Positions 2,311 to 28,460 of a stretch of DNA of 41,301 nucleotides are shown one piece after another. The stretch lies in contig JAQCNI010000113.1 of the NCBI GenBank assembly GCA_028275105.1, positions 1 to 41,301 on the forward strand. Reading direction: 5' to 3'. The notes under the pieces were generated by a model. That model had not been told where the DNA came from. It searched no databases and saw nothing but the letters and a program-made list of their open reading frames with translations. Origin of the DNA: Halorubrum sp. GTDB taxonomy: Archaea > Halobacteriota > Halobacteria > Halobacteriales > Haloferacaceae. Every line of letters starts with the position of its first letter. Position 1 is the stretch's first letter. Both the position numbers and the translations under genes were made by a program.

Positions 2311-2434
2311 ATGTAGTATCGGACCTCGTACCCGTAACGTGGGTGTTCTCGCGGTTAACGGTTACGGATACACCCGGAGAAACTCCCGAGTTCGAGAACA
2401 ATTCTTTCAGCGACGAAAATCCGAGTTCGGGATC

Positions 2435-5400: not shown

Positions 5401-8400
5401 CGCGGTGAACGAAGCTCCGCTCACAAACCGACTCGACGTACTCACGGTGTCGCTCGAACTCCGCGGCCGTGAACACGTAGCCGGTTTCGCCGACGTCCGC
5501 TTTCGGGACGCGTCGGGGTGTCCAGCCGAGTTCGGCGGTGAACGTCTGACCGTGGACGCTCGGTCGGACCCACACCTCGTACTCGCCGTCGACGAGTTCG
5601 GTCAGATCGACCTCGTCGGTCCGCTCGCCGTCCGGGCCGTCCCAGTCGTGGGGGAGTTCGTAGTTAGTCGCCCGATCGAGATCGCCGGCCGCCACGAAAC
5701 CGTACCCGTCCTCGGTGATCCCGTTCGTCTCGTTTTTTCGGACCAGCATCCGGTGGTTCGGCGTCACTCGGAAGTCGATCTTCGAGGTCTCGATGTCGAC
5801 GAGATCACCCCGGTAATCGGGATACGCGTGGGTCTCTTCGACGGTCCTGACCTCCATCGCCTCCGTGTCGGGATCGAGCGAGTACACGGCGTCGCCGACG
5901 GCCAAGTCCGTGATCGACCGAACCCCCTCGGGAGTCACGACCTCGGTGTCCGGCGTGAAGCAGTTCATGATAACCTTGACCGCGCCTTGCTGTCGGTCGT
6001 ACTGTTCGTACGGCTCGGTGTCAGGGGCGTGGTCGTTCCGGAGCGCCTTCTTTTTCTCGCGCTCGGAAAGGAGCTCGTCAACCATCTCGCGCATGATCCC
6101 GTCCGGCTCCTTCCGAAAGTGGGTCCCGTTGGGGGCGACGTACGTCTCGCCGTCGTACTCCGCGGGGTCAACTTTCGTTTCCGGACCCGCGTTGATCGTT
6201 ACCATACACATTGGATAGAGACTCTTTAAATCCTGGACCGTCACCATCTCCTTGACGCCGGTGATCGGGTCGAAGACGGCGCCACCTTCGAACTCCTCGG
6301 ACTCCTGTTGGCCCTTCGTCGGGAGGGCGAACTTCCCGAACGCCTTGTGGAGGACGTACATGTCGACGGTGTCGCCTGGGGTCGGTGCGTCCTCGATCTT
6401 ACAGCCCACGAACGTACGCACCTCGTCCCAGAAGGCGATCACGTCCCGTGCGCGGTCGATCCCGACGCAGAGTTCCACGTCGCGGATGCTGTACTCCAGG
6501 AGTCGCTCCGGGTCCTGCTCCCAGAGGTCGCCGATGTCGCCCGCGTACCGCTCCTTGCCGATGCCGAGCTCGCGCTCGCCGACCGCGTCGAGCCGGTACG
6601 ACTCCAGTTCGGTGAACATCGTCCGCTTGTAGGCGTACAGCAGGTCGAACACGACCCGTCCCTTGATATCGGGGCCGCCCCAGCCGGAGCGCCACACCTC
6701 GCCGATGCGGGAGAGCCGGTCGATCGACAGGTCGTACTGGCTCCCCGGATCGATCTCTTCCATCCGGTCGAGGACGTATGGAACGTCGAAATCCTCGCAG
6801 TTGTGAACGAGACAGTCGTCCGCAAAGAAGTCGTGCGTGGTCGTCTCGATATCGTACGTCGTCTCCGTGCCGACACGGTCCACACCGGTTACCTCCACGA
6901 ACACGTACTCCGGCCACTCATCGAGAGTCGTTTCGTGCCGTTTGAGATTGATCCCTCTGCGATGTTTGTCTCGGCCGATCCGCTTCTCGTCGGTGCCAGT
7001 GTCCGCCTCGAAGAGTGCGTACGAGATGTTTTCGCTGCGCCCGCTTTTCCCGCCATCCAGCGTTCTCAGCGCGTCCCGTTTTTTCGGATGTGAGAGATGC
7101 GGGAGGATCCGATCTTTGAGTCGCTGGAGGTCGCGTTCCGCGTTCGGAACTCGAACCACGTTCTCACGCTGCTCCGCGTAGACACCGATCCGACGGAACA
7201 ACTTCACGTACCATTCACCGATGGACCGATTCTCGGCGGCAACGGTCACCGAGGAGGAAACGCTACCATCCCCATCGATGACTCCCGCGAGGAACCGTTC
7301 GATATGGGATTCGGGGAGTTCGAAAACCGTCGAGAGGTCGGCCCGCTCCTCGTTTTTGTTACCCAACGGGATCCCAAGCCCGTTGAACGCGTACATCAGG
7401 GCGGAGTCCAAGACGTTCTGTTTGTAACATCCCTTGCCGTCGGGTTCGAGGTGTGGCTCACCGGGGAACTGCTCGTGTAACTCCTCGCGAGTGTTGTAGA
7501 AACGGATCCCGTCGTCCGGCGACATGGATCCGTCGGTAAGGATCAGTCCCGCGAGATACAGTTCATGTGCGGTGAGTTCCCTCTTAAGATCCCGTCGCGT
7601 ACGACGGTACTCACGCCCACCGTCAGGAAGCGGGATGTCGTATCGGTCGGCCGCGATCCGACAGCGTTCCGGGGTCCAAACGTCCGTCTTCGGGTGATAC
7701 AACGCACCCGTTTCGAGGCCGAAGTCTTCTGCCAGTTCCGAGATGGCACCGTACGGAAGTTCGGATTTGAACGGGCCGATCGTCCCTTCGTTTTCGAACC
7801 GCTGGTATTCGGTCGGGACGAGATCGCTGAGTGTCGGGACTCGAGGGGAATCGACGTTCAGTTTCCGTGGCTTGAGGAGGTAATCCCCGACCCCAATGTC
7901 TCGGCCCTCTTTCCAGTCGACCTGCTCGTCGTCGCCAACCATCACGCGATGGTCTTCGGAGCTACGGAGATCGGTCCCGTCCGCGAGCTCGTACCGGAGG
8001 ACATCCGTCTCGCTTTCCCACTTGTTTGTGACCTCCGCGGTCGTCGTCCATCGGTCGTCGCTTCCGATCACCTCGTCCCCGATGGACACGTCCTCGATCC
8101 GTTTTTCCGTTCCGTCAGCCGTGAGGATCCGGCTATCCGCTGGAAGGCAGTTCCACCCCGTAAAGAGATCCGGATCGGTGTCGTCGATGTACTCGACGAA
8201 GGCGTCGAGCATCGCGGCCTCTTCCTCGAAGGTGCGTACCTCGAAGTCGATCTCGCCGCCGCCGTCGCCGACGATCCCCTCATAGTCGGGGAGATCCTCC
8301 GGCGGCGGAACCGCCGCCTCGGGCGCGTCGTACAGCCAGACGACGTACTCGTCGTCGTAGGAGTCGTGGCTGGTGAGACAGATGATCGGCTCCTCGCCGT

Positions 8401-9127
8401 CCTCGGGGAACCCGCGGCGGTCGTCGACCTCAATGTCGAAGGTGTTCACCCGCAACTCGGCGTCGACGGCGGCGGGTTCGAGGTGGCCCTCGTGGACCTG
8501 GATCGTCCCCGCCTCGTCGTCGAGTCGCCGTTCCTCGACGCGGATCCCGCCGTTGAGCCCGTTATCGATGAGAAAGCGGTTGGGGAACAGAATATCCGCC
8601 TCGAAGGTGGTCTCGAAGTCGTCACGGATGCTCCCGACGTCGCGGGGGGTCCGGGTGACGATCCGGGTGAGCGGCTCGCCGCGGATGCTTTCATAGGGGT
8701 CGCCCCCCGGATCCACCTCACGGGTGCCGATGACGACGTCGTACGCCTCGACGGGGTCGCGGTCGAGGTCGGCGGTGGGGACGTAGAAGTACGGCTCCAC
8801 GCCCAGCACCCGGAGGTGTTCCGGGCGGGCGTATTCGGCGTCCCCGTCGACGTGTTCCGCCGGCCGACGGCCGAACACGTGAACGACGGGGTACTCGTCG
8901 CTGCCGTAGCCCTCGACGGCGTAGTCGATCTGCGTGATCATCAGCTCGACGGTGCCGGTCGAGTCCGGAAACTTCGCCTCGTCGACGTCGACGACGTCGC
9001 TGATGCGGCCGCCTCCGCCGCCGGCGACGACCTTCGCCTCCTCGGCGGCGAGGTCGCCACGGCCGGTGCCGTCGTCAGCGTCCATCCCGTCGGGCGATGA
9101 GAACTCCGAGAGCCCCGACTGTGTCAT
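2435..9127 (-). CDS. polB: Family B DNA polymerase with three inteins (start taken at MTQSGLSEFSS, 9127, not the ORF-track start at 9235)
   Basis: Extein motifs: FDIEVDDRRGFP (Exo I), DPDLFTGWN/CEDFDVPYVLDRM (Exo II), DLKSLYPMCMVTINAGPET (Pol A), KVIMN/SLYGVTGW (Pol B), AYGD/TDSVML (Pol C). Total 2230 aa; about 931 aa after removal of three inteins. Confidence 0.95.
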   Translation of the reverse strand: MTQSGLSEFSSPDGMDADDGTGRGDLAAEEAKVVAGGGGGRISDVVDVDEAKFPDSTGTVELMITQIDYAVEGYGSDEYPVVHVFGRRPAEHVDGDAEYARPEHLRVLGVEPYFYVPTADLDRDPVEAYDVVIGTREVDPGGDPYESIRGEPLTRIVTRTPRDVGSIRDDFETTFEADILFPNRFLIDNGLNGGIRVEERRLDDEAGTIQVHEGHLEPAAVDAELRVNTFDIEVDDRRGFPEDGEEPIICLTSHDSYDDEYVVWLYDAPEAAVPPPEDLPDYEGIVGDGGGEIDFEVRTFEEEAAMLDAFVEYIDDTDPDLFTGWNCLPADSRILTADGTEKRIEDVSIGDEVIGSDDRWTTTAEVTNKWESETDVLRYELADGTDLRSSEDHRVMVGDDEQVDWKEGRDIGVGDYLLKPRKLNVDSPRVPTLSDLVPTEYQRFENEGTIGPFKSELPYGAISELAEDFGLETGALYHPKTDVWTPERCRIAADRYDIPLPDGGREYRRTRRDLKRELTAHELYLAGLILTDGSMSPDDGIRFYNTREELHEQFPGEPHLEPDGKGCYKQNVLDSALMYAFNGLGIPLGNKNEERADLSTVFELPESHIERFLAGVIDGDGSVSSSVTVAAENRSIGEWYVKLFRRIGVYAEQRENVVRVPNAERDLQRLKDRILPHLSHPKKRDALRTLDGGKSGRSENISYALFEADTGTDEKRIGRDKHRRGINLKRHETTLDEWPEYVFVEVTGVDRVGTETTYDIETTTHDFFADDCLVHNCEDFDVPYVLDRMEEIDPGSQYDLSIDRLSRIGEVWRSGWGGPDIKGRVVFDLLYAYKRTMFTELESYRLDAVGERELGIGKERYAGDIGDLWEQDPERLLEYSIRDVELCVGIDRARDVIAFWDEVRTFVGCKIEDAPTPGDTVDMYVLHKAFGKFALPTKGQQESEEFEGGAVFDPITGVKEMVTVQDLKSLYPMCMVTINAGPETKVDPAEYDGETYVAPNGTHFRKEPDGIMREMVDELLSEREKKKALRNDHAPDTEPYEQYDRQQGAVKVIMNCFTPDTEVVTPEGVRSITDLAVGDAVYSLDPDTEAMEVRTVEETHAYPDYRGDLVDIETSKIDFRVTPNHRMLVRKNETNGITEDGYGFVAAGDLDRATNYELPHDWDGPDGERTDEVDLTELVDGEYEVWVRPSVHGQTFTAELGWTPRRVPKADVGETGYVFTAAEFERHREYVESVCERSFVHRESGRKWIPRTFDGDDFLELLAWYVTEGNVYTSEKKRFGDDFCGSATTVTIAQNAVTDGGDSAHATIGELLDRMGFDYAVNERRYQITSKLLGDLLRNRCGDGSFEKRIPDRIFESARAQKRAFLDTLIDGDGDRQSGSWRYTTSSERLRDDVLRLCAHLGLTANYNHDSGSWRIYVTEDGKNTLRMNRSADRSEAENGVYCVTVEDNHTLLAGRNGKFQFVGQSLYGVTGWDRFRLYDKEGAAAVTATGREVIDFTEGAANELGHDVAYGDSVTGDRPVVVRDPDGIVRILPIADLFERSDATASEDVVITADGGPVASASVDKERRRVDGWEALSVTENTEPEWRPIERVIRHETDKPVVNLRHKFGESTTTRDHSYVVEEDGTLVETKPEDVEAPLRVSGLPEVETVETIDVYDVLEGYTREDEDGRSVGSESAEPKVKRVHADDDWVRFGYGHHDVIAQRIKIQRYVDLDSEDGRALVRLLAAYVADGSASTVETTDSTCGVSISESGTEWLEGLQEDYRRLFDGATASIIASDTSKERTVEHQTGSGDQSVTYDDGTHKLRMMNELSAVFFRELAGQPSGGKRIPGFVFNLPDDLQRLFVDVLVGGDGSREFPRYSAAYCERNFEFETTSRELAAGLSTLLTQRGEKHSLNYGENNGRYTIRACDHYRGGRDPVVEAVDHDGYVYDLSVAENENFVDGVGGIVLHNTDSVMLSLGKDADEEAAIETSFDIADHINGRYDDFAREELNAETHRFEIEFEKLYRRFFQAGKKKRYAGHIVWKEGKDVDDIDITGFEYKRSDIAAITKEVQQNVIETIVMGDDIDDDLAEITASLSDVIDDFLAGEIDVEAVGIPGGIGKRLDAYETPTAQVRGARYANELLGTNFGSGSKPKRLYLEKVHPDFWERMEAERGLDPQHDPIYGEFKRDPDVICFEYADQIPAEFAVDWEKMLDKTLQGPIERVIEALGTSWEEVKTGQEQTGLGSFM
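3272..4588 (-). other. Intein 3 in PolB (439 aa, LAGLIDADG-like), at YGD/TDS
   Basis: Starts SVTGDRPVVVRDPDGIVRILPIADLF, ends NENFVDGVGGIVLHN followed by T; motifs LLAAYVADG and FVDVLVGGDG. S codon 4586-4588, N codon 3272-3274. Confidence 0.93.
4733..5962 (-). other. Intein 2 in PolB (410 aa, LAGLIDADG-type), at KVIMN/SLYG
   Basis: Starts CFTPDTEVVTPEGVRSITDLAVGDAVYSL, ends VEDNHTLLAGRNGKFQFVGQ followed by S; motifs LLAWYVTEG and FLDTLIDGDG. C codon 5960-5962, Q codon 4733-4735. Confidence 0.92.
6800..8149 (-). other. Intein 1 in PolB (450 aa, LAGLIDADG endonuclease-type), in the Exo II motif
   Basis: Starts CLPADSRILTADGTEKRIEDVSIGDEV, ends ETTTHDFFADDCLVHN followed by C; endonuclease motifs LAGLILTDG and LAGVIDGDG. 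Boundaries checked at codon level (C codon 8147-8149, N codon 6800-6802). Confidence 0.93.
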
Positions 9128-11358: not shown

Positions 11359-13851
11359 ATGCGACCGACCGCCCTCGACGGACTTCCCACCGGCGTCGGC
11401 GAGACGCTCGAAGCCGAGGGGATCGACGCGCTGTATCCGCCACAGGCGGCGGCCGTCGAGGCGGGCGTCCTCGACGGCGAGAGCCTCGTCGCCGCCGTCC
11501 CCACCGCCTCGGGGAAGACGCTGATCGCCGAACTGGCCATGTTGTCGGCGGTCGAACGCGGCGGCACGGCACTGTACATCGTCCCGCTTCGCGCGCTCGC
11601 GAGCGAGAAGAAGGCGGAGTTCGAGCGCTGGTCGAACCACGGCGTCAGCGTCGGCGTGTCGACGGGCAGCTACGACTCCGACGGCGAGTGGCTCGCGACC
11701 CGCGACGTCGTCGTCGCGACCTCGGAGAAGGTGGACTCGCTGATCCGTAACGGCGCGCCGTGGATCGACGACCTGACCTGCGTCGTGAGCGACGAGGTCC
11801 ACCTCGTCGACGACGCGTCCCGCGGCCCGACGCTGGAGGTCACCCTCGCGAAGCTCCGGAAGCTCAATCCGGGGCTACAGGCGGTCGCGCTCTCGGCGAC
11901 CATCGGCAACGCCGACGTCGTCGCCGACTGGCTCGACGCCGAACTCGTCGAGTCGGACTGGCGACCGATCGACCTCCGGATCGGGGTCCACTTCGGGAAC
12001 GCGATCAACTTCGACGACGGGAGCCAGCGGGAGGTGGAAGTCGACCGTGGCGAGGGGAGGACCGCCCGGCTCGTCGCCGACGCGCTCGACACCGAGGAGG
12101 ACGGCCAGGGCGGCTCCTCGCTCGTGTTCGTCAACTCGCGGCGGAACGCCGAGTCGGCGGCCCGCACGCTCGCGGACGTGACCGGGTCACGGCTGGCGCC
12201 CGACGAGCGCGACCGCCTCCGCGAACTGGCCGAGGAGGTCCGCAGCGTCTCCGACGCCGACACCGCGACGGACCTCGCCGACGCGGTGGAGCGGGGGGCG
12301 GCGTTCCACCACGCGGGGCTCGCCGCGGACCACCGGAGCCTGATCGAGGATGCGTTCCGGGAGCGGCTGATCAAGGTCGTCGCGGCGACGCCGACGCTGG
12401 CGGCCGGGGTCAACACCCCCGCTCGCCGGGTTATCGTCCGCGACTGGCGGCGCTACGACGGCGAGTTCGGCGGCATGAAACCCCTCGACACCCTCGAGGT
12501 TCACCAGATGTGCGGCCGCGCGGGGCGCCCGGGGCTCGACCCGTACGGCGAGGCGGTGCTGCTCGCGGACGACGCCGACACGATGGACGACCTGTTCGAC
12601 CGATACGTCTGGGCGGACCCCGAGCCGGTCCGGTCGAAACTCGCCGCGGAGCCGGCACTCCGGACTCACGTGCTCGCGACGGTCGCGTCCGGCTTTGCCG
12701 CCACCCGCGGCGAACTCCTGACGTTCCTCGACAACACGCTGTACGCAACCCAGACCGACGATGAGGGGCGGCTCACGGCCGTGACGGACACCGTTCTGGA
12801 GTACCTCGCCGTCAACGGATTCGTCGAACGCGAGCGCGACGGGGACCCCGGCGGATCCGAGCGGCTGACCGCGACCGGGATCGGTCACACCGTCTCGCGG
12901 CTCTACCTCGACCCGATGAGCGCGGCGGAGATGATGGACGGCCTCCGCGCGTCGTCGGCCGGGGACGACGCCGGCGCCCGGACTGGGACGGCCGCGTCGG
13001 ACGGCTTCGAACGGGCCGTTCCGGAGGGCGATGGCGACGGCGACGAACCGGGATTCGGGACGTACAGCCGGGTCGGGGGTGGGGAAGGAGCCGACGCCGA
13101 CGACCTCGGCGACGCGGTCCCGGTGGCCGGGGGCGACGGCTCGTCGACCGAGGATCGCGCGGCCCCCACCGCGCTCGGGCTCTATCACCTCGTGAGCCGG
13201 ACGCCGGACATGTACGAACTCTACCTCAAGTCCGGCGACCGCGAGCGGTACACGGAGACGTGTTACGAGCGCGAGGCGGAGTTCCTCGGTGACGTCCCCT
13301 CGGAGTACGAGGACGTCCGTTTCGAGGACTGGCTCGCGTCGCTGAAGACCGCCCGCCTGCTGGAGGACTGGGCCGACGAGGTCGACGAGGACCGCATCGC
13401 CGAGCGGTACGGCGTCGGGCCGGGTGACATCCGCGGGAAGGTCGAGACCGCCGAATGGCTGCTCCGCGCGGCGGAGACGCTCGCGGCCGACCTCGACGGA
13501 GTCGATGACGACGTCGCCGGCGCGGTCCGGCGGGCGCGGAAACGGATCGAGTACGGCGTCCGCGGGGAGCTGCTCGACCTCGCCGGCGTCCGGAACGTCG
13601 GCCGTAAGCGCGCCCGCCGGCTGTACGAGGCGGGTATCGAGGACCGGGACGACCTCCGGTCGGCCGACAAGGACGTCGTGCTCGGCGCGCTCCGCGGCCG
13701 CGAGCGGACCGCCGAGCGGATCCTCGAACACGCCGGCCGCGAGGACCCCTCGATGGACGGCGTCGACGCCGACCGGGCGGCGTCGGCCGCGGCGACCGCC
13801 GGCAGCGACGACGACGGCGACGGCCAGTCCAACCTCGGTGATTTCCGGTGA
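11359..13851 (+). CDS. hel308: ATP-dependent DNA helicase Hel308
   Basis: 830 aa from ATG 11359; [15 protein letters not shown] (motif I), SDEVHLVDD (DExH), [38 protein letters not shown]-terminal [15 protein letters not shown] HhH. Confidence 0.95.
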
Positions 13852-18536: not shown

Positions 18537-19820
18537 ATGAGTCTCGCCATCGACGCCGCGACCCCCGACGCCCCGAGCTGTGCGGACGACGGAACCTGGC
18601 TTGCCTGTATCGCCTGCGGCGAGACGTTCGACCCGTTCGAGGACGTCCGATACACCTGTGACGACTGTGACGGGCTACTCGAGGTCCGGTACGCCGATCC
18701 GCCGACGTTCGGCGAGTTCGGCTCGGGCGCTCCCTCCGACGGCCCCGACCGGGGGGTGTGGCGGTACCGGGAGGGGCTCCCGTTCGATCTCGGCGTCACG
18801 CTCCCGGAGGGGGACACCCCCCTCCACCGGGTACCCCGGATCGAGGAAACGGTCGGCATCGAGACGCTCCGGGTGAAACACGAGGGGATGAACCCCACCG
18901 GGTCGTTCAAGGACCGCGGGATGACCGTCGGCGTTCGGGTCGCCAAGGAGCTCGGCGTCGGCGCGCTCGCGTGCGCGTCGACCGGGAACACGAGCGCGGC
19001 GCTGGCGGCGTACGGCGGCCGCGCCGGCATGCCGACGCTCGTCCTCCTGCCGGACGGGAAGGTCGCCGCCGGCAAGGTGGCCCAGGCGAGCCTCCACGGC
19101 GCCCGGATCCTCGAGGTCGACGGCAACTTCGACGCCTGTCTCGACATCGTCCAGGAGCTGGCCGCCCGCGGCGAGGCGTACCTGCTCAACTCGCTGAACC
19201 CGTTCCGGCTGGAGGGACAGAAGACGATCGGCTTCGAGATCCTCGAGGAGTTTTACGCCGATCACGGGACGTATCCCGACCGGATCGTCCTCCCGGTCGG
19301 CAACGCCGGCAACACCTCCGCGTTGTACAAAGGGTTCCGGGAACTCGTACAGTCCGGCGCACTCGACCCCGGCGACGTCCCCAAGCTGACCGGCGTCCAA
19401 GCCGAAGGGGCCGCCCCGATGGTCGAGGCGATCGAGGAGGGGAACGACGAGATCCGGCGGTGGGAGGAGGTCGAAACGTGCGCGACCGCGATCCGCATCG
19501 GCAACCCGGTCAACGCGCCGAAGGCGATCCCCGGGATCCGGAACACCGGCGGGACCGCCGTCGCCGTGAGCGACGCCGAGATCACGGCGGCACAGTCACA
19601 CCTCGCGAGCGAGGGCGTCGGCGTCGAACCGGCCTCGGCCGCGAGTCTTGCCGGGGCCAAGAAGCTCCGCCGTGCCGGGGTCGTCGACGCCGACGAACGG
19701 GTCGTCTGTCTCACGACCGGCCACCTGTTGAAGGACCCCGAGGCGGCCTACGAGGCCGGCGGCGACCCGGAACCCGTGCCGAACGATGTCGACGCGGTCG
19801 TCGAGCAGCTGAACGACTGA
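18537..19820 (+). CDS. thrC: Threonine synthase
   Basis: N-terminal zinc-ribbon-like LACIACGETFDPFEDVRYTCDDCDGLLEV, PLP site NPTGSFKDRGMTVGV, TLVLLPDGKVAAGKVAQA. Confidence 0.93.
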   Translation: MSLAIDAATPDAPSCADDGTWLACIACGETFDPFEDVRYTCDDCDGLLEVRYADPPTFGEFGSGAPSDGPDRGVWRYREGLPFDLGVTLPEGDTPLHRVPRIEETVGIETLRVKHEGMNPTGSFKDRGMTVGVRVAKELGVGALACASTGNTSAALAAYGGRAGMPTLVLLPDGKVAAGKVAQASLHGARILEVDGNFDACLDIVQELAARGEAYLLNSLNPFRLEGQKTIGFEILEEFYADHGTYPDRIVLPVGNAGNTSALYKGFRELVQSGALDPGDVPKLTGVQAEGAAPMVEAIEEGNDEIRRWEEVETCATAIRIGNPVNAPKAIPGIRNTGGTAVAVSDAEITAAQSHLASEGVGVEPASAASLAGAKKLRRAGVVDADERVVCLTTGHLLKDPEAAYEAGGDPEPVPNDVDAVVEQLND

Positions 19821-19911
19821 AGCTCCAAACGAGCGGGACGTCGCTCGACCGACGGTTCCGACTGGCGACCCCACACGAGGATTTATACGCGATATCGCGG
19901 CCACGGTCGGT

Positions 19912-21780
19912 ATGAGCCTCGAGTTCCCGTCGTTCGCCCGGTTCGGAACCGACGACGGGTGTCGGTGTGATCCGTCGTTCCGACGACCGATGGGAACCGG
20001 CGTCGACGATCGCGTCGTCCTCGCGGTCGACGCGAACGAGTGTCCGGGTTGTGGGGATCTCGCGGCGAGCCCCGACTGTTTGTCGACGGTCGTCGGCGCA
20101 TTGAGCGACCGGGACGCCGACGTCATCAGGACCGAGCACGCCGGTCGAGAACGGGCGTACGCCGGCCGGGCCGCGGCGTGTCTGCTCGCGGCCGGCCGGT
20201 TCCGGGACCGGGTTCGCTTCCACGAATCGCGGCTCGCGGAGCGCGTGACGCGGGATCCGATCGGGGCGGCCCACGAGGCGGTCGGACGGGCGGGACCGGC
20301 GAGCCGGATCGTCGCCGAAACCGGGCTCGCGGAGATAGCGGCGGGCGCGAACGGAACCGACGACGTGCTACGACCCCACGTCGGGCCGACCGTCTCGGCG
20401 ACGCGGATCGCGTCCGAGCCGCCCCCGGGGGCGGCGCTCGTCGACCGCTGGGAACTCGAGACGGGCGCAACGGTGCGCCGCTACGAGGGGACCGGCCCGC
20501 TCGACACGTACCACCTCACGCCGCCGTCCGCCGAGTTCGACGCGGCGACGGTCGGGACCTTGGACGCCGCGAAGGAGCGGTTACTGGTGGACCCGGCCGG
20601 CGGCGACAGGGCGCCGGGGCGGGCGGTCCGGGCCGTGGCGGACGCGGACGATCCGGTTCCGGCGCTCACCGACACGCTCCGGCGCCACACCCACGGGTAC
20701 GGCGCGTTCGAGCACGTGTTCGCCGACGAGCGGGTGAGCGACGCGACGCTCTCGGCGCCGGTCGCCGAGAACCCGCTGCGGGTCGTCCTCAACGGCGAGC
20801 GCTGCCGGACGAACGTCCGGCTCCCGCCGGAGGGCGCCGCGACGCTTGCGTCGCGACTCCGACGCACGAGCGGCCGGGCGTTCTCGCGCGCGACCCCGAC
20901 GCTCGACGCGACGATCGACACGGAGTCGGGGACGGTCCGGGTGGCGGCGACGACGACACCCGCGAGCGACGGCCTCTCGTTCACCTTCCGGCGAGGCGAC
21001 CCGGATGCGTGGACGCTGGCCCGACTCGTCGACGCCGACACGCTCCCCGCGGCGGCGGCCGGACTGTTATCCATCGCCGTCGAACGGGGCGTGACGGGGC
21101 TGGTCGCCGGCGGTCGAGGGGCGGGAAAGACGACCGCGCTGGGGGCGCTCCTGTGGGAGCTCCCGGCCGACACCCGGTCGATCCTGATCGAGGACACGCC
21201 GGAGCTTCCGGCAACGGCGCTCGCGTCGGCGGGCCGGGACGTCCAGCGGCTTCGAGTCGGCGACGGGGGTGAGCCGTCGCCGAGCGAGGCGGTTCGAACG
21301 GCCCTCCGGCTCGGCGGCGGCGCGCTCGTCGTCGGCGAGGTCCGTGGCGAAGAGGCGCGGGCACTGTACGAGGCGATGCGGGTCGGGGCCGCGGGAGAGA
21401 CCGTCCTCGGCACGATTCACGGCCGTGACCCGAACGCGGTTCGCGAGCGGGTCGTCACCGACCTCGGCGTCGCTCGGTCGTCGTTCGCCGCGACGAACCT
21501 CCTCGTGGTGTTGAACGACCACCGCGTCGGCTCGATCGTCGAAGTGACTGAGCGGGGCGACGAGGTAGTGTTCGACGCGCTGTTCGAGCGGACCACCGAC
21601 GGGCTCGATGCGACCGGACGGATCGGGCGCGGGGAGAGCCGACTCGTCGACGGGCTGGCCGGAAACGGGGAGTCGTACGCGGACGTCCGAACGAGGATAG
21701 GCGAGCGGAGCGACCGAATCCGTGAGGCGGTCGAGGTCGATCGGACGACTCCGGACGGGTACGTCGAGGTCCGTCGATGA
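19912..21780 (+). CDS. Type II/IV secretion (pilus) ATPase, PilB/VirB11-like
   Basis: Walker A VAGGRGAGKTTALGALLWELP, EDTPELP Asp box, Walker B GGGALVVGEVRGEEARALYEAM, His box GTIHGRDPNAVRERV. Confidence 0.93.
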   Translation: MSLEFPSFARFGTDDGCRCDPSFRRPMGTGVDDRVVLAVDANECPGCGDLAASPDCLSTVVGALSDRDADVIRTEHAGRERAYAGRAAACLLAAGRFRDRVRFHESRLAERVTRDPIGAAHEAVGRAGPASRIVAETGLAEIAAGANGTDDVLRPHVGPTVSATRIASEPPPGAALVDRWELETGATVRRYEGTGPLDTYHLTPPSAEFDAATVGTLDAAKERLLVDPAGGDRAPGRAVRAVADADDPVPALTDTLRRHTHGYGAFEHVFADERVSDATLSAPVAENPLRVVLNGERCRTNVRLPPEGAATLASRLRRTSGRAFSRATPTLDATIDTESGTVRVAATTTPASDGLSFTFRRGDPDAWTLARLVDADTLPAAAAGLLSIAVERGVTGLVAGGRGAGKTTALGALLWELPADTRSILIEDTPELPATALASAGRDVQRLRVGDGGEPSPSEAVRTALRLGGGALVVGEVRGEEARALYEAMRVGAAGETVLGTIHGRDPNAVRERVVTDLGVARSSFAATNLLVVLNDHRVGSIVEVTERGDEVVFDALFERTTDGLDATGRIGRGESRLVDGLAGNGESYADVRTRIGERSDRIREAVEVDRTTPDGYVEVRR

Positions 21781-23660
21781 CGGGGAACGGTTCCGGGGAT
21801 CGATCGGACGCCGAGGCGACACGGGAGTCGGAGATCGGATCGAGTCGGGGATCGAACGAGGGGATTCTGGCGACGGCGGCGACGGTCGTTACGGGTGTGC
21901 TGGCGGACCACGACGCCGGGGGTGACGCGGGGTCGGAGGAGCTGCGCCGGGCCATCGCGTTCCTCGGCTGGGACGTGACCGCGGGACGAGTCGTCGAGGG
22001 CGGAACCCGGGCCGGGATCGGCACGGGGCTGATAAGTGCCGGCGTCGGCGGGCTCCTCGCGGGGCCCGGCCCCGGAATGCTGATCGGCCTCGTCGTCGGC
22101 CTCGGGGTGACCCACGCCGTCCATCGTGGAGCGGTATGGCTCGCGGCGCTCCGACGGACGCGCGCGCTCGGGGCTGCGCCGGGGCTCGTCGGACGGCTCG
22201 TGTTGCGGATGCGGCTCGATCCGTCGACGGAGCGGGCCGTACGGTTCGCCGCTCGGACCGGCCGTGGACCCCTCGCGGAGGGGCTGGCACGACACGAACG
22301 CCGGTGCGTGAACGGGCCGACGAGCGGTCTCCGGGCATTCGCTCGCGAGTGGCGGCCGTGGTTCCCGGCGGTCGACCGGGCGGCCGCGCTGGTCCGAACG
22401 GCGGCATCGGCGCCGCCCGAACGGCGGGGGCGATGTCTGGACCGGGCGCTCGACGCGACGCTTTCCGGAACGACGGAGCGGCTGGCCGCGTTCGTCGGGG
22501 ACGTCCGCGGGCCGGTGTCCGCGCTGTACGCGTTCGGCGTGCTCCTCCCGCTCGCGCTCATCGCGTTGTTGCCCGCGGCCGCCGCGTCCGGTGTCCCAAT
22601 CCCGCCGGTCGTCGTTGCGGGACTGTATCTTTTCGTCCTCCCGTGTGGACTGCTCGTGGCGTCGGGATGGCTGCTCTCCCGGCGGCCGGTCGCGTTTCCG
22701 CCGCCGTCCATCGGGAGCGATCACCCGGACGTGCCGGAGCGGCTCCGATACGCCCTCGCCGCCGGGGTCGGTACGGGGTTCGTCGCCGCGGTCGGTTCGG
22801 GCACCGTCGTTGCGTCGTGGGTCGCGCCGGTGAGCGCGGTCGGGGTCGGGGTCGGCACGGCGCTGGTCGTCTGGGCCCGACCGCGCCGGGCGGTGCTCGC
22901 CGAGGTCAGGTCGATCGAATCCGGGCTCCCGGACGCGATGACGATCGTCGGTGGTGACGTCGCGGAAGGGGTCGCCGTCGAACGCGCGGTCGCGAACGCT
23001 GCCGACCGCCTCGACGGGTCGACCGGCGACGTCTGCGACCGGGCCGCCCGGCGGAGCGAGACGCTCCGGGTCGGGGTCCGCGAGGCGTTTCTCGGTCCCG
23101 GCGGCCCGGCCGCGACGGTGCCGTCGCCGCGGGTACAGGGGGCCGTCGCGCTCCTCGCCGTCGCCGGCCGCGAGGGTCGCCCCGCAGGCGACGTCCTGTT
23201 GGAGCTGGCGGACCAGCTGGAGCGGCTCCGCGAACTCGAACGCGACGCCCGGCGCCAACTGGCGACGGTGACGGGGACGCTGTCGAACACGGCCGCGGTG
23301 TTCGCCCCGCTCGTCGGCGGGGCCACGGTCGCGCTCGCGACGGGGGTCGACGCCGTGGGAGCCGGCGGTCTGGGTGCGACGGCCGGCGTCGCGGGCGATC
23401 CCCTCGCTGCCGGCGCGGATCCCGGGGCCGTCACATCGGCGGGGGAGTCGGCCGGCGGCCGTGGCGCGCTGTCAGTACCGGTGCTCGGTCGGATCGTCGG
23501 CATGTACGTGATCCTGCTCGCCGCCACCCTCACCGCGCTGGCGACGGGACTCGAGCGAGGGTTTGACGCGACGCTCGTCGCGTACCGCGTCGGCATCGCA
23601 CTGCCGACGGCGACGGCGACGTACTTGGTCGCGTTCGCCGGAGCGGGACTGCTGTTGTGA
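21777..23660 (+). CDS. TadC/PilC-like pilus platform membrane protein
   Basis: ATGA overlap with the ATPase gene; multiple TM segments, two platform-like halves (LGAAPGLVGRLVLRMRLDPST... and VRSIESGLPDAMTIVGGDVAEGVAVERAVANAADRL). Confidence 0.88.
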   Translation: MTGNGSGDRSDAEATRESEIGSSRGSNEGILATAATVVTGVLADHDAGGDAGSEELRRAIAFLGWDVTAGRVVEGGTRAGIGTGLISAGVGGLLAGPGPGMLIGLVVGLGVTHAVHRGAVWLAALRRTRALGAAPGLVGRLVLRMRLDPSTERAVRFAARTGRGPLAEGLARHERRCVNGPTSGLRAFAREWRPWFPAVDRAAALVRTAASAPPERRGRCLDRALDATLSGTTERLAAFVGDVRGPVSALYAFGVLLPLALIALLPAAAASGVPIPPVVVAGLYLFVLPCGLLVASGWLLSRRPVAFPPPSIGSDHPDVPERLRYALAAGVGTGFVAAVGSGTVVASWVAPVSAVGVGVGTALVVWARPRRAVLAEVRSIESGLPDAMTIVGGDVAEGVAVERAVANAADRLDGSTGDVCDRAARRSETLRVGVREAFLGPGGPAATVPSPRVQGAVALLAVAGREGRPAGDVLLELADQLERLRELERDARRQLATVTGTLSNTAAVFAPLVGGATVALATGVDAVGAGGLGATAGVAGDPLAAGADPGAVTSAGESAGGRGALSVPVLGRIVGMYVILLAATLTALATGLERGFDATLVAYRVGIALPTATATYLVAFAGAGLLL

Positions 23661-23751
23661 CCCGGCAGATCGGGACTGCCGTTGTCACCCGCCGCGGCAA
23701 GGGCACCGCCGCAATTTGCCGGGGCATCGTCGCCCGCGTGCCGCCCGACTG

Positions 23752-23759
23752 TTTATATA
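23752..23759 (+). promoter_or_regulatory. TATA box (TTTATATA) of an internal promoter in the pilus locus
   Basis: gtttatatac at 23751-23760, ~22-30 nt before ATG 23782, consistent with a leaderless haloarchaeal transcript. Confidence 0.65.
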
Positions 23760-23781
23760 CGAAAGCCGGGCCACCCGGCAT

Positions 23782-24264
23782 ATGTTCGAGACGAACCTCG
23801 ACGCCACGTACGGGTGGCTCGGTTTGGCGATAGTGAGCGTTGCGACCGCCGGCATGGTCGCGTCGCTCCCCGCCTCGCCGCCGCCCGACGCGGACGGGGT
23901 CGCACGGACGATCGACTCGGTTGCCGGCGGCGAGTACGTCGCGACGGCGGAACACGGGATCACGGCCGACAAAATGCGGCTCACGACCCGGACGGTCGAG
24001 CTCTCGGACGGCGGCGGTACCGCCCGAGCGGCGATCCACGGGTCGCCGGTGACGCCGACTCCGGCCGGGAGCGTCGACGTCGACGGCCGACTGCGGAGGG
24101 TGCTCGGCGGGATACCGCCGGAGACCGTGTTCGACGACCCGGAGGCGTTCGCCGCCGCGGCCGAGCGGGCACGGACGGCCGATCACGAGTGGAGGCGAAG
24201 TCCGGAACGACTGACGGTTCGACGGGTTAGATACGGTGATCTTCGTGTCACGCTCGTCGGGTGA
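23782..24264 (+). CDS. Pilus-operon small anchored protein (DUF7283-like, name unverified)
   Basis: MFETNLDATYGWLGLAIVSVATAGMVASLP...: one N-terminal TM and a ~130-aa extracellular-type domain. Confidence 0.78.
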   Translation: MFETNLDATYGWLGLAIVSVATAGMVASLPASPPPDADGVARTIDSVAGGEYVATAEHGITADKMRLTTRTVELSDGGGTARAAIHGSPVTPTPAGSVDVDGRLRRVLGGIPPETVFDDPEAFAAAAERARTADHEWRRSPERLTVRRVRYGDLRVTLVG

Positions 24265-24715
24265 GGGGTTCGCCGCGGCGGATCGTGCCGCAGTCGAACC
24301 CGTGGCCGCGCTGGTAGCGGTCCTCGTCGTCGGCGCGGGGCTCGGGTTGTACGTGACGGCGCTCGACGGGGCGGGATCGGCGACGGAACGGGACGATGCG
24401 GCCGCCGTCCTCGATCGGATCGAACACGAAGCGGCGGTCGGGGGGATCCTCCGGCCGGGGCGGATACGCACCGTCTCCGACGTTCGGGCCCCGGCTGCCG
24501 TCGAAGTGGCGACGAAGAACGAAACGTGGCGATACGGTGTCGGCGGAGCCGACCCCGGTGATCTCGGCGAGGTCGGCGGGCGTCTCGACGAACGGGGGGC
24601 GGATTCCGACGGGATCGATGAACGATCCGGCGGGACCGCCGAGCGGCGGGTGACGGTTCGGGTCGCCCCCGGCGTCACCGTTCGTGGGGTCGTTCGAGTG
24701 GTGGTCCGAGGATGA
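24236..24715 (+). CDS. Pilin-like anchored protein (DUF7285-like, name unverified)
   Basis: GTG start; N-terminus ...ADRAAVEPVAALVAVLVVGAGLGLYVTAL resembles archaeal class III signal/pilin helix; overlaps upstream gene by 29 nt. Confidence 0.72.
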   Translation: MIFVSRSSGEGFAAADRAAVEPVAALVAVLVVGAGLGLYVTALDGAGSATERDDAAAVLDRIEHEAAVGGILRPGRIRTVSDVRAPAAVEVATKNETWRYGVGGADPGDLGEVGGRLDERGADSDGIDERSGGTAERRVTVRVAPGVTVRGVVRVVVRG

Positions 24716-25308
24716 CCAGCACCGTCCTCGACGTGACGGTGTTGTTGCTCTGTGTCTCCGCCGGCGTCGTCGTGCTCGGGAACACGGGAGGCGGTCCCGA
24801 AGCCGGAACGGCCGGCGGCACCGCGGGAGATGTCGCCGACCGGCTCGTGACCGAAACCGCGACGATCACGTATTCCGTCGACGGAGGGGCGCGTGACGCC
24901 GTCGCCGACGACGAGCGACCAACTCACGAGGCGCGGACGGTTCACGCGACCCTCGCCGAACTCCTCGCCATGACGACGGCGAACGGTAGCGAAACCGGGA
25001 CCGAGACCGCCGATCGGTTTCGCTCGAGGGTGCTGGAAACGGTCGACGATGCGTTGGACCCGCGGACGCGGGTGGACGTCCGAGCCGGACGAACGGAGCG
25101 GCAGAGGTCGGCGGGGTCGAGGAGGGATCCATCCGCATCCGGGGGCGGCGAGGGGACGACCGGGTCCGGATCGGGATTCGGCCGTCGAACCGTCTCCCTC
25201 GGTGACGAGCCGCCACGGAATGCCGACGTCACGACGGCGGTCGTCACCCATCCCGGACCCCACGGCTCCCGCGGGCCCGACGTCCGGATAGTAGTGAGGG
25301 CGTGGTGA
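24712..25308 (+). CDS. Pilus-operon small anchored protein (DUF7284-like, name unverified)
   Basis: MTSTVLDVTVLLLCVSAGVVVLGNTGG...; ATGA overlap with the upstream gene. Confidence 0.72.
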   Translation: MTSTVLDVTVLLLCVSAGVVVLGNTGGGPEAGTAGGTAGDVADRLVTETATITYSVDGGARDAVADDERPTHEARTVHATLAELLAMTTANGSETGTETADRFRSRVLETVDDALDPRTRVDVRAGRTERQRSAGSRRDPSASGGGEGTTGSGSGFGRRTVSLGDEPPRNADVTTAVVTHPGPHGSRGPDVRIVVRAW

Positions 25309-28300
25309 CGATGTGGACGCCACGATGGGATCGGTCGGGGGGGTCCGCGGGCGACCCGCAGTCATTCGCCGGCGACGGGCGGTCGTTCGCCGGCGACACG
25401 CGGGCGCGGGTTCCGTTTGCCCTGATCGGCGTGTTGCTGTTGGTGAGCAGTTCCGCGTACGCCGCCGGCGTCGTAGATCAGGGGCTCGTGAGCGAGGATC
25501 GAAGCGTCGAGCGGGCGGCCGAGCGGGTCGACGCGGACGCGACGTCGGCGCTCAAAACCGCTGCGCGCGAGGCCGCTCACGACGCCGCTGCCCGTCCGGT
25601 GACCGAAGCACCGACCGGATCCGACGACGGGAGCGCGACGGCCGCGACCGACGCAGTCCGGCCGGGATCGGCCTTCGAGGACGCCTTTCGGATTCGGATC
25701 GCGCTCGCCGGCGCGGACGCGCTCTCCGCGATTGACGCGTCGGTGGGCGACGTCTCGGCGACCGTCTCGTTGGATCGATCCCTCGATCCGGACGACCCGG
25801 GCGATCTCCGGGGGCTCAGAGAATCCGTTACGGTCGGTTCGGTTGCGAACGGGACCGCGGCGCGGGTCGTCTTCGAGAACGTGACGACGACGGCGACCCG
25901 GGACGGACGGATCGTCGCGGAGCGGACCCGGGACCGCACCGTCGTCGTCGCGGTGCCGACGCTTGCGGCCCACGAGCGGACGGAACGATTCGAGGAGCGG
26001 TTGAATCACGGCCCCGTCGAGGGGCCGGGGCTCGGCCGCCAGATAACCGCGAGTCTCTATCCGATAACGTGGGCCCGTGGGTACGCGCAGTACGCCGGCG
26101 CACCGGTCCGGAACGTGCTCGCGAATCGTCACGTCGAACTGTCGACGAACGCCGGGATCGTCAGGACACAACGGGACGTGTTCGGGGCGAGCGACCCTGA
26201 CGCTCGGGGCGGAGTGGCCGAAGCGGCCGCAAGAACCGGCATGACTGACCTCCTCGCCCCCACCCCGCTGGACGAGTCGGCGTGGACCGACGCCGTTCTG
26301 GATACGCCGACGCCGGGAGGGGAACGCGGCGACGCCGGGTTCGAGGCGGCGGCGAACCACACGGACGAAACGACGACCGTCGAGGTCGGACACGCCGCGG
26401 ACGTCGGGGCAGTCTCGACCCACGACGGCCTCGAATCGACCGTCCGCGACAGCTATCGAGTCGAAGCGAGCGTCGAGACTGCGGCCGAACGCACCGTGTG
26501 GGGCGGGAGGCCGAGGCCGGGACCACCGAACGACGACGACTGGGTGCGCGTCGACCGCGACGTCGACTATCGGGTGGACGTCGTTCCGGACCGAGGCGTG
26601 CCCGGAGGGGCTCCATCCGGAACGGTCGAGACGGGCGAGGAACGCGACTTCGGGAGGACGACCCGGGAGGTCACCGTCGAGCGGGCCGCGACCGAAACGT
26701 GGGAACGGACCGTCATACTGGAGGGGCCCGATGGAGGGATCCGCACGAGAATCGTCGAACGGACGACCGTCGCAAGCGTGACCGACCGGTATCACGTCGT
26801 CGTCCGTGTGTCGGGGGCGTACGCGCCGGCGGGCGACGCCCCCGGTCGGCCGGTTGCGACGTTCGGCGCCGGCGGAACGGGCGACGGCCCCGACCTCGCC
26901 GGGACGCCGGGGGCGGCCCGGGCGGACCTCGGCGTCGGCACCGCGTCCGGTGTCGACCGGATCGCCCGGGAGACGGTCAGTGACGGTCGGGTCGAGCGGT
27001 CGACCGTCGTGTTCGGCCATCGATCGGCGGCGACGAGGGATCGGATCCGGGTCGACCTGGACGGCCTCCGAGTCGCGGTTCGCGGCATCGAAACCGAGCT
27101 GTCGATGGAGGCGACGGCCGTGGGCGAGGCGAAACCGTACGGGGACCTCGCCGACGAGCTCCGTTCGCGGCGATCGGCGCTGGTGGACGCACCCTCGACC
27201 TACGACGGGGCCGCGGAGCGTGCGCGGATCGCGGTTCGGGTCGCCTACCTCGACGCCGTTATCGCCGAACTAGAGGCGGCCGCCGCCGACGGTGAGGCCG
27301 CCACCGACGGGTTGCTCGACCGGGTCGATGCCACCTTCGACGGCCCGTCGGTCGGGGAGACGATCGCCGAGCGGGAGGCCGCACGGGACACCGAAACGCA
27401 CCGCGCTGGGGAACAAGGACCGGGTGGACCCGTGACGTTCGTCCCGGACGGCTCGCCGGGATACCTCCCGCGGACGGCGGTCGACGGGGACGACGCCACA
27501 GCCGTCGAGGAAACGGAACCGATCCGACCGCTCGCCACGCGGAACATCAACTACGTGACGGTGCCGTACGGCGATGCGGCGAGCGGGATCGTCGAGCGGA
27601 TCCTCGGGAACGAGGACACCGTTCGGATCGGGGTCGCGGGGCGCGCGGTCGTCGCGGCCGACGAACTCCTCGCGGGGCGCGAGGACCCGGATCTGCGCTC
27701 CGATAGGGACGAACTCGCCCGACGGATCGAAACGTCGCGGGCGGTCGTCGATCGGGAACTCGTCGTCGCGCTCGAGCGCCGAACGTCGCTGACGCGTCGG
27801 GAACGACGGTCGATCGTGACGTCGATTGGGGCCACGTACGACTCGCCGGGGACGCGGGCGGTCGCGATCGGCAACGGCGAGTACGCGGAGCGGATCGCCG
27901 CCGAGGCCACGAGGGTCGGATCGCTGTCCGATGGGGAGGAGGCAGCCCTCGCGGCACGGCTCCGTGTCGCGCTCAGGGGCGCGGCGGGACGGAACGCGGT
28001 TCGGATTCCGACGCGGTTCGTCGACGGGCCGACCGGGGCGGTTCGCAAGGGCGTCAAGAACGAGATGGCGGGGGCCATCGAGGACGGCGGGAGGCGCGCC
28101 GGCGAGGAAGCGGCCGAACGATGGACGCCGAAACCGGTCCGGAGCGTCGGTGCCGGACTGCCGGTCGCACCCGTGCCGGGGTACTGGGTGGCGACGGTGA
28201 ACGCCTGGCGGGTGGAGGTCCGCGGGGAGTACCCCCGGTTTACGCTCACCGCCGACGTGGGACCGCCGGACGAACCCTTCGAATATGTTCGGGAGGAGGG

Positions 28301-28460
28301 AACGGTAACGGTGACCGTCGGCGACGACCCGGTGCGGTTGGGAACGACGGAGCCGGTCCGGTTCGAGACGGGGACCGTCGTCATCATCGCGGTCCCCCCC
28401 AAGCCGCCGGGTGTCGGCGACGTCGACGGGACCAGAGACGAGACGTCCGAAAGATGGTGA
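25302..28460 (+). CDS. Giant N-terminally anchored pilus-operon protein (~1050 aa; DUF7286-like, name unverified)
   Basis: Overlaps upstream stop; ...GDTRARVPFALIGVLLLVSSSAYAAGVVDQG anchor helix followed by ~1000 aa. Alternative starts 25305 (GTG) and 25311 (ATG). Confidence 0.8.
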   Translation: MVTMWTPRWDRSGGSAGDPQSFAGDGRSFAGDTRARVPFALIGVLLLVSSSAYAAGVVDQGLVSEDRSVERAAERVDADATSALKTAAREAAHDAAARPVTEAPTGSDDGSATAATDAVRPGSAFEDAFRIRIALAGADALSAIDASVGDVSATVSLDRSLDPDDPGDLRGLRESVTVGSVANGTAARVVFENVTTTATRDGRIVAERTRDRTVVVAVPTLAAHERTERFEERLNHGPVEGPGLGRQITASLYPITWARGYAQYAGAPVRNVLANRHVELSTNAGIVRTQRDVFGASDPDARGGVAEAAARTGMTDLLAPTPLDESAWTDAVLDTPTPGGERGDAGFEAAANHTDETTTVEVGHAADVGAVSTHDGLESTVRDSYRVEASVETAAERTVWGGRPRPGPPNDDDWVRVDRDVDYRVDVVPDRGVPGGAPSGTVETGEERDFGRTTREVTVERAATETWERTVILEGPDGGIRTRIVERTTVASVTDRYHVVVRVSGAYAPAGDAPGRPVATFGAGGTGDGPDLAGTPGAARADLGVGTASGVDRIARETVSDGRVERSTVVFGHRSAATRDRIRVDLDGLRVAVRGIETELSMEATAVGEAKPYGDLADELRSRRSALVDAPSTYDGAAERARIAVRVAYLDAVIAELEAAAADGEAATDGLLDRVDATFDGPSVGETIAEREAARDTETHRAGEQGPGGPVTFVPDGSPGYLPRTAVDGDDATAVEETEPIRPLATRNINYVTVPYGDAASGIVERILGNEDTVRIGVAGRAVVAADELLAGREDPDLRSDRDELARRIETSRAVVDRELVVALERRTSLTRRERRSIVTSIGATYDSPGTRAVAIGNGEYAERIAAEATRVGSLSDGEEAALAARLRVALRGAAGRNAVRIPTRFVDGPTGAVRKGVKNEMAGAIEDGGRRAGEEAAERWTPKPVRSVGAGLPVAPVPGYWVATVNAWRVEVRGEYPRFTLTADVGPPDEPFEYVREEGTVTVTVGDDPVRLGTTEPVRFETGTVVIIAVPPKPPGVGDVDGTRDETSERW

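Follow-up and report, generated by a model that had tools for sequence, protein, structure and literature searches.

A conserved haloarchaeal gene cluster coding for a candidate type IV filament machine with a large, putatively surface-presented subunit

Introduction

Do the pilus-type genes of a Halorubrum sp. contig code for one of the known archaeal pili or for a type IV filament (T4F) machine of their own? The window, which is the whole stretch of 41,301 nucleotides analysed here (contig C16), carries a run of six such genes on one strand, all of them open reading frames at the coordinates claimed (Table 1). A preliminary description, made from the letters of the window alone, had read them as a PilB/VirB11-like ATPase, a TadC-like protein and four anchored proteins, and both the six reading frames and the hydrophobic helices quoted there are present. 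The reading that we favour, and think somewhat likelier to be right than wrong, is a distinct T4F machine in which an ATPase of its own clade and a TadC-like platform go together with a conserved cassette of proteins with one anchor each, and in which a short pilin-like complex would present the large protein DUF7286. Whatever in this machine goes beyond a motor assembling pilin-like subunits is what we infer.

Results

Gene organization and conservation of the locus

The pilB/tadC and DUF7285/DUF7284 gene pairs are joined by exact ATGA overlaps. The DUF7283 and DUF7285 genes share 20 nt, the start of the latter being taken as the GTG at 24245 (24236 is an alternative), and those of DUF7284 and DUF7286 share at most 7 nt. 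The run had been described as tightly packed, which applies to the two ATGA junctions but not to the boundary between tadC and DUF7283, where a gap of 121 nt accommodates a TATA-like element.

Table 1. Features of the pilus-type locus in the window (start..end)
Feature	Position	Strand	Evidence or remark
TATA-like TTTATA, 30 nt 5' of the pilB start	19882..19887	+	Sequence; kept despite DUF7311 displacement
PilB/VirB11/TadA-type ATPase, 622 aa	19912..21780	+	PF00437 E=4.4e-17
TadC/PilC-like membrane platform protein, 627 aa	21777..23660	+	PF00482 E=5e-4, under curated cut-off
TATA-like element, 30 nt 5' of the DUF7283 start	23752..23757	+	Motif statistics over loci
DUF7283, N-terminal hydrophobic helix	23782..24264	+	PF23954 E=1.9e-52; alignment
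DUF7285, pilin-like subunit	24245..24715	+	PF23956 E=1.1e-18
DUF7284, pilin-like subunit	24712..25308	+	PF23955 E=1.6e-16
DUF7286, 1052 aa, pilin-like anchor and large, putatively extracytoplasmic body	25302..28460	+	PF23957 E=0

Five of the six genes match Pfam families with E-values of 4e-17 to 0, TadC (5e-4) being the exception. In the gene-neighbourhood analysis that the preliminary description had proposed, the order DUF7311-pilB-tadC-DUF7283-DUF7285-DUF7284-DUF7286, on one strand, is found in 72 of the 75 named haloarchaeal loci (scripted count), and the remaining three (L052, L076, L109) miss upstream genes where their contig ends. The tadC gene follows the ATPase gene in 72/75 loci, and the locus is also present in a genome of the same genus (G489). 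Given these E-values and the conserved order and strand, the six-gene run is not a product of chance. Two neighbours were considered as further members of the system and rejected. DUF5791 is coded after the cassette in 69 of the 75 named loci; it shows no enrichment of sequons (see below) and stays with DUF7311 in locus L162 after the rest was lost, so it is regarded as a neighbour. In the 75 named loci thrC never adjoins pilB.

Displacement of the DUF7311 gene

In relatives DUF7311 heads the run, about 5–6 kb upstream of DUF7286. In the genome of the window its gene lies on contig C93. There it ends in a stop codon of its own, the next gene is serA on the other strand, and the genes 5' of DUF7311 match those found 5' of the operon in relatives. 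Upstream of pilB stands thrC, a gene that in two relatives faces serA at distances of 0.9 and 3 kb. The new reciprocal junctions are thrC/pilB (window 19820–19912) and DUF7311/serA (L241, G000:C93, 9811–9873). Since the old neighbour pairs of the relatives are here exchanged for both reciprocal junctions, the gene order suggests that an inversion or translocation probably swapped DUF7311-pilB and thrC-serA for DUF7311-serA and thrC-pilB, splitting the operon. An error of assembly is a conceivable source of the same arrangement, but both reciprocal junctions are present and each lies between intact genes. The locus had been called a minimal system, which is abandoned here: DUF7311 is a standard component (72/75 loci) that is only displaced in this genome. 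Two degraded loci were also found, L162 (G126), which keeps DUF7311 and DUF5791 with DUF7286 only as a C-terminal scrap, and L161 (G012), where a C-terminal piece of DUF7286 lies beside DUF5791.

Promoter-like elements

Of 74 loci, 46 have the motif TTTA[AT]A 28–31 nt 5' of the DUF7283 start, as compared with 3 of 1520 random positions; at the same spacing it is found in 0/75 loci before DUF7284 and 0/75 before DUF7285. For pilB the strict motif occurs in five of the 24 loci scored and variants are visible in others. A spacing of this kind between TATA element and start suggests leaderless transcripts in haloarchaea. The element 5' of DUF7283 is probably a separate promoter of the pilin-like cassette and, as the cassette is preceded by a TATA-like element of its own, it may be expressed apart from the motor.

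The motor and the prepilin peptidase

The ATPase scores 62 bits with PF00437 (cut-off 24.9), as expected of an assembly ATPase of the type IV filament superfamily. It features a Walker A motif GGRGAGKTT, a Walker B region LVVGEVRG, a His box TIHG and an N-terminal extension that contains Cys. The platform protein reaches 20.4 bits with PF00482, under the cut-off of 25.2; its position and conservation agree with a TadC role. In the ATPase tree the locus-type and methanogen-type ATPases form one clade (support 100/99), set apart by an internal branch of 2.7 from 13 other PilB sequences, one of which (L116) has a long branch and is of unsure placement. The ATPase of this subfamily was found in 10/10 cassette genomes tested (217–517 bits), even where the cassette has no neighbouring motor, while 4/4 genomes without the cassette had distant paralogues only (at most 90 bits).

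No prepilin peptidase gene is adjacent to the locus, as had been remarked before; the genome carries a peptidase A24, the prepilin peptidase expected of the superfamily, on contig C71. In one distant genome a peptidase A24 gene lies some 2.4 kb 5' of the motor, and the surroundings of a stand-alone motor of family f19 (L238) code for a type IV leader peptidase as well as a HerA-like ATPase and a small protein whose amino terminus is prepilin-like (5075–6677, 12077–12559). The motor and the leader-type sites described below support membership of the locus in the type IV filament superfamily, a sequence-based assignment in which the platform domain stays under its cut-off and a fold match is missing.

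Note that a further VirB11-type ATPase is coded in L115 (G000:C24) at 7231–8937. The genes of L115 have a GC3 of 0.55–0.66, far below the rest of the genome, and the region is perhaps a mobile element.

The anchored proteins DUF7285, DUF7284 and DUF7283

DUF7285 carries a class III-type site, DRA/AVEP (the slash marks the expected cleavage point), with the cut expected after position 24289. The pattern [KR][GA]xx[EDST]P is present in 73 of 76 loci, and a 74th protein (L099, RRGQLSP) escaped it solely through the residues after the proline. We take this pattern to fit the style of haloarchaeal class III prepilins. The AlphaFold2 model of DUF7285 (38 sequences, pLDDT 85.6) consists of a helix of 46 residues (6–51) and a four-stranded sheet. 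Foldseek retrieved nothing from the PDB at E ≤ 0.001 for this model; its putative pilin fold is based on the topology and the site. No anchored protein matches a known pilin family above cut-off. Weak DUF7287 matches are found in 7 of the 38 DUF7285 members, and profile comparison detected no relation between DUF7285 and DUF7283.

In the window, DUF7284 starts where the mature protein would (M-TSTVLDV). Its relatives read RG/VSTVVDV, DRA/ISTVMDV or MTDRG/VSTVVDA, and distant haloarchaeal and methanogen members have R[GA] or a similar pair before a hydrophobic residue and ST. By pattern, a prepilin-type site is present in 9/76 loci; in the others, the window included, translation appears to begin at that point or within a few residues of it, as judged from start codons assigned by eye. 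For DUF7283 no prepilin site is recognisable in the alignment. Class III leaders, identified by motif only, are found in DUF7285 and, in other lineages, in DUF7284, which bears out the earlier remark that the anchors resemble pilin helices.

The absence of a cleavable leader from DUF7283 and from leaderless DUF7284 in the lineage of the window, together with the lack of a fold relative of DUF7286, would suit a fixed membrane complex, serving for example DNA uptake or envelope maintenance, that is energised by PilB/TadC and has no filament subunits. The class III-type sites of DUF7285, and of DUF7284 in distant lineages, speak against such a complex, which we regard as highly improbable.

DUF7286 and orientation of the anchored families

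DUF7286 has a pilin-like N-terminal anchor, R[AG]RVPFAL, and a conserved C-terminal GVGDVDG..E; the GVGD-type motif and the E behind it can be traced from Halorubrum to the methanogens. An A or G precedes R[VI]PFAL in 73/73 proteins scored, a count in which the search pattern itself demanded A/G and from which two rows failing the anchor pattern drop out as misplaced fragments; in an unfiltered alignment of 15 sequences the column likewise holds only A or G. The +1 residue is almost always R in haloarchaea, outside the usual prepilin set, and some distant members have G or S at -2. The AlphaFold2 model (pLDDT 76.8, pTM 0.52) begins with an N-terminal helix of low confidence; besides regions of mixed alpha/beta structure it contains two very long strands, a helical region and, at the C-terminus, a beta domain. 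Nothing in the PDB matched it at E ≤ 0.001 (Foldseek). The structure prediction proposed in the preliminary description thus yielded a pilin-like topology for DUF7285 and no significant PDB match for either DUF7285 or DUF7286. Viral Foldseek matches of DUF7286 (TM about 0.04) were discarded, and profile matches of DUF7286 and DUF7285 to solved structures, at E 0.35–0.67 only, were taken as noise.

N-glycosylation sequons of DUF7286 are 2.6 times more frequent than the shuffled expectation over 75 loci. For the five anchored families, among them DUF7311, the ratio is 1.7–2.6, and for PilB, TadC and DUF5791 it is 0.4–1.1. The window's own anchored proteins have 0 to 3 sequons each, so that the enrichment is a statement about families. 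Because sequons are enriched in the anchored families, an outward orientation of all five is supported, though not proven.

A set of few minor subunits of which one is large recalls the minor pilin tips of type II secretion systems (T2SS; GspH-I-J-K) and type IV pili (FimU-PilV-PilW-PilX with PilY1). This is an analogy only: no sequence or fold similarity of the anchored proteins to GspH-I-J-K or FimU-PilV-PilW-PilX was detected. It raises the alternative of a T2SS-like secretion system, in which the pseudopilus would work as a piston that exports folded proteins through the S-layer, and DUF7286 would be a large GspK-like tip or a receptor for substrates. The four or five minor-pilin-like proteins, one very large, resemble GspH-I-J-K in number and no major pilin is obvious, but there is no linked substrate and the relation to GspK finds no support in sequence or fold, which makes this alternative rather improbable.

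Distribution and co-occurrence

Of the 244 Halobacteria genomes sampled, 189 have DUF7286; in the set of 14 control genomes it was found in Haloferax volcanii and Methanosarcina acetivorans. The families f13 and f19 were the main additions from sampling across the phylum, together with a few weak matches; f13 is taken as the Methanosarcina family in view of the control match in M. acetivorans. In f13 and f19 the cassette begins with a relative of DUF7311 (96.6% and E 6.7e-10 in the profile match), continues with a second small protein, DUF7285 and DUF7284, and has DUF7286 next or nearby. Homology of the second small protein with DUF7283 is not claimed: the register is plausible, but the pairwise P is 0.017 and the probability 2.7. 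Neither pilB nor tadC was found within the 20-kb stretches around f13/f19 cassettes or beside the haloarchaeal cassettes L149, L151, L152, L155, L157, L158 and L160. The system, described as haloarchaeal, is indeed found in Halobacteria but extends further, as relatives of DUF7311, DUF7285, DUF7284 and DUF7286 keep their order in methanogen-type genomes whose motor lies elsewhere. In three methanogen-type loci DUF7286 is followed by a protein of 177–203 aa with a signal-peptide-like start (L191 11030–11563, L188 8421–9032, L195 8024–8623), one of which has a weak BatD-like match.

Over 238 genomes, 179 have both DUF7286 and DUF7311, four DUF7286 only (G012, G045, G056, G067), none DUF7311 only and 55 neither, the presence lists being compared by hand. 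The Fisher P of 1e-49 overstates the evidence, as relatedness of the genomes is uncorrected. DUF7283 is absent in 20/20 genomes without DUF7286. By these sequence matches the cassette of single-anchor proteins (DUF7311, DUF7283, DUF7285, DUF7284, DUF7286) is retained or lost as a unit. DUF7286 had no tblastn match in plasmid records.

Discussion

Relation to known systems

The euryarchaeal pili of PilB3 and PilB4 type (H. volcanii), assigned to clade 2 systems by Makarova et al. 2016 (PMC4858521), have PilB and TadC, class III prepilin-type subunits and a peptidase encoded elsewhere. The locus resembles them in this layout, with a TadC-like platform, and differs by its separate ATPase clade and its one subunit of ~1000 aa. 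PilB4-type subunits are DUF7287, DUF7288, DUF7261, DUF7266 and DUF7289, as opposed to DUF7311, DUF7283, DUF7285, DUF7284 and DUF7286 here. The genome has a PilB4-type locus as well (L114, G000:C36, 204–9257), which codes a 1130-aa ATPase, a TadC-like protein and the pilin-like DUF7287, DUF7288, DUF7261, DUF7266 and DUF7289. With its ATPase in a separate clade and no PilA-type or DUF7287/7288/7289 match above cut-offs, the locus of the window falls outside the PilB3/PilB4 type. Like the bacterial Tad pilus (TadA, TadB/TadC, TadE/F/G), it codes anchored pilin-like proteins after the motor, and among NCBIfam models the ATPase fits a TadA-like one best (E=4e-31, score far below cut-off). Unlike the Tad pilus it has a single platform gene, and no TadE-family Pfam match was found among the single-anchor proteins.

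A dedicated adhesive or sensory pilus, with DUF7285 as major subunit or with a PilA-family pilin from elsewhere in that role, is quite unlikely. Archaeal PilB/TadC modules are believed to draw on pilins in trans (PMC4858521), and the cassette has its own TATA element. In a distant archaeon (L190) genes for DUF7288 and DUF7287 (2399–3546, minus strand) lie beside the cassette, about 2.1 kb upstream of it on the opposite strand, with no pilB detected in the 20-kb stretch. Such neighbours were seen in one genome only, however, and H. volcanii lacking pilB3-C3 had no surface pili (PMC4371748), so that under the conditions used no visible pili came from another system.

The claim of an undescribed system holds in part. 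The locus is distinct from the PilB4-type locus and from the other PilB ATPases sampled, but its DUFs are already in Pfam and H. volcanii carries them. As a genome paper (PMC7921747) counts six pilBC pairs, with associated genes, in that species, parts of the locus have probably been seen earlier. No paper naming DUF7311, DUF7283, DUF7285, DUF7284 or DUF7286 was found in a search that covered few subscription papers, nor was a function of the locus found described in the literature searched.

Proposed machine

In the T4F machine that we favour, PilB and the TadC-like platform would be the motor that assembles pilin-like subunits. DUF7285 would be a class III prepilin, DUF7284 would descend from one and DUF7286 would bear a related amino terminus, and the prepilin peptidase would act from elsewhere in the genome; these steps are supported, not proven. 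As no separate major pilin is obvious among the genes of the locus, the stalk would be DUF7285 itself, short, or completed by pilins encoded elsewhere. The resulting short pilin-like complex would show DUF7286 at the surface. A more far-reaching version, which we consider unlikely, is a separate T4F class common to Halobacteria and Methanosarcina-type methanogens: not a pilus but a motor-assembled stalk that would carry through the S-layer a protein of ~1000 residues and new fold, while one of the subunits would have become leaderless by translation from its mature end.

If the favoured reading is true, about three quarters of sampled Halobacteria have a T4F machine that is undescribed in the papers found; this machine would have an ATPase clade to itself and a giant subunit at the surface. 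It would be testable, as the genetically tractable H. volcanii carries the machine. It would also provide a natural series of pilin leader shortening and loss, and would help to explain why haloarchaea retain several PilB-TadC pairs.
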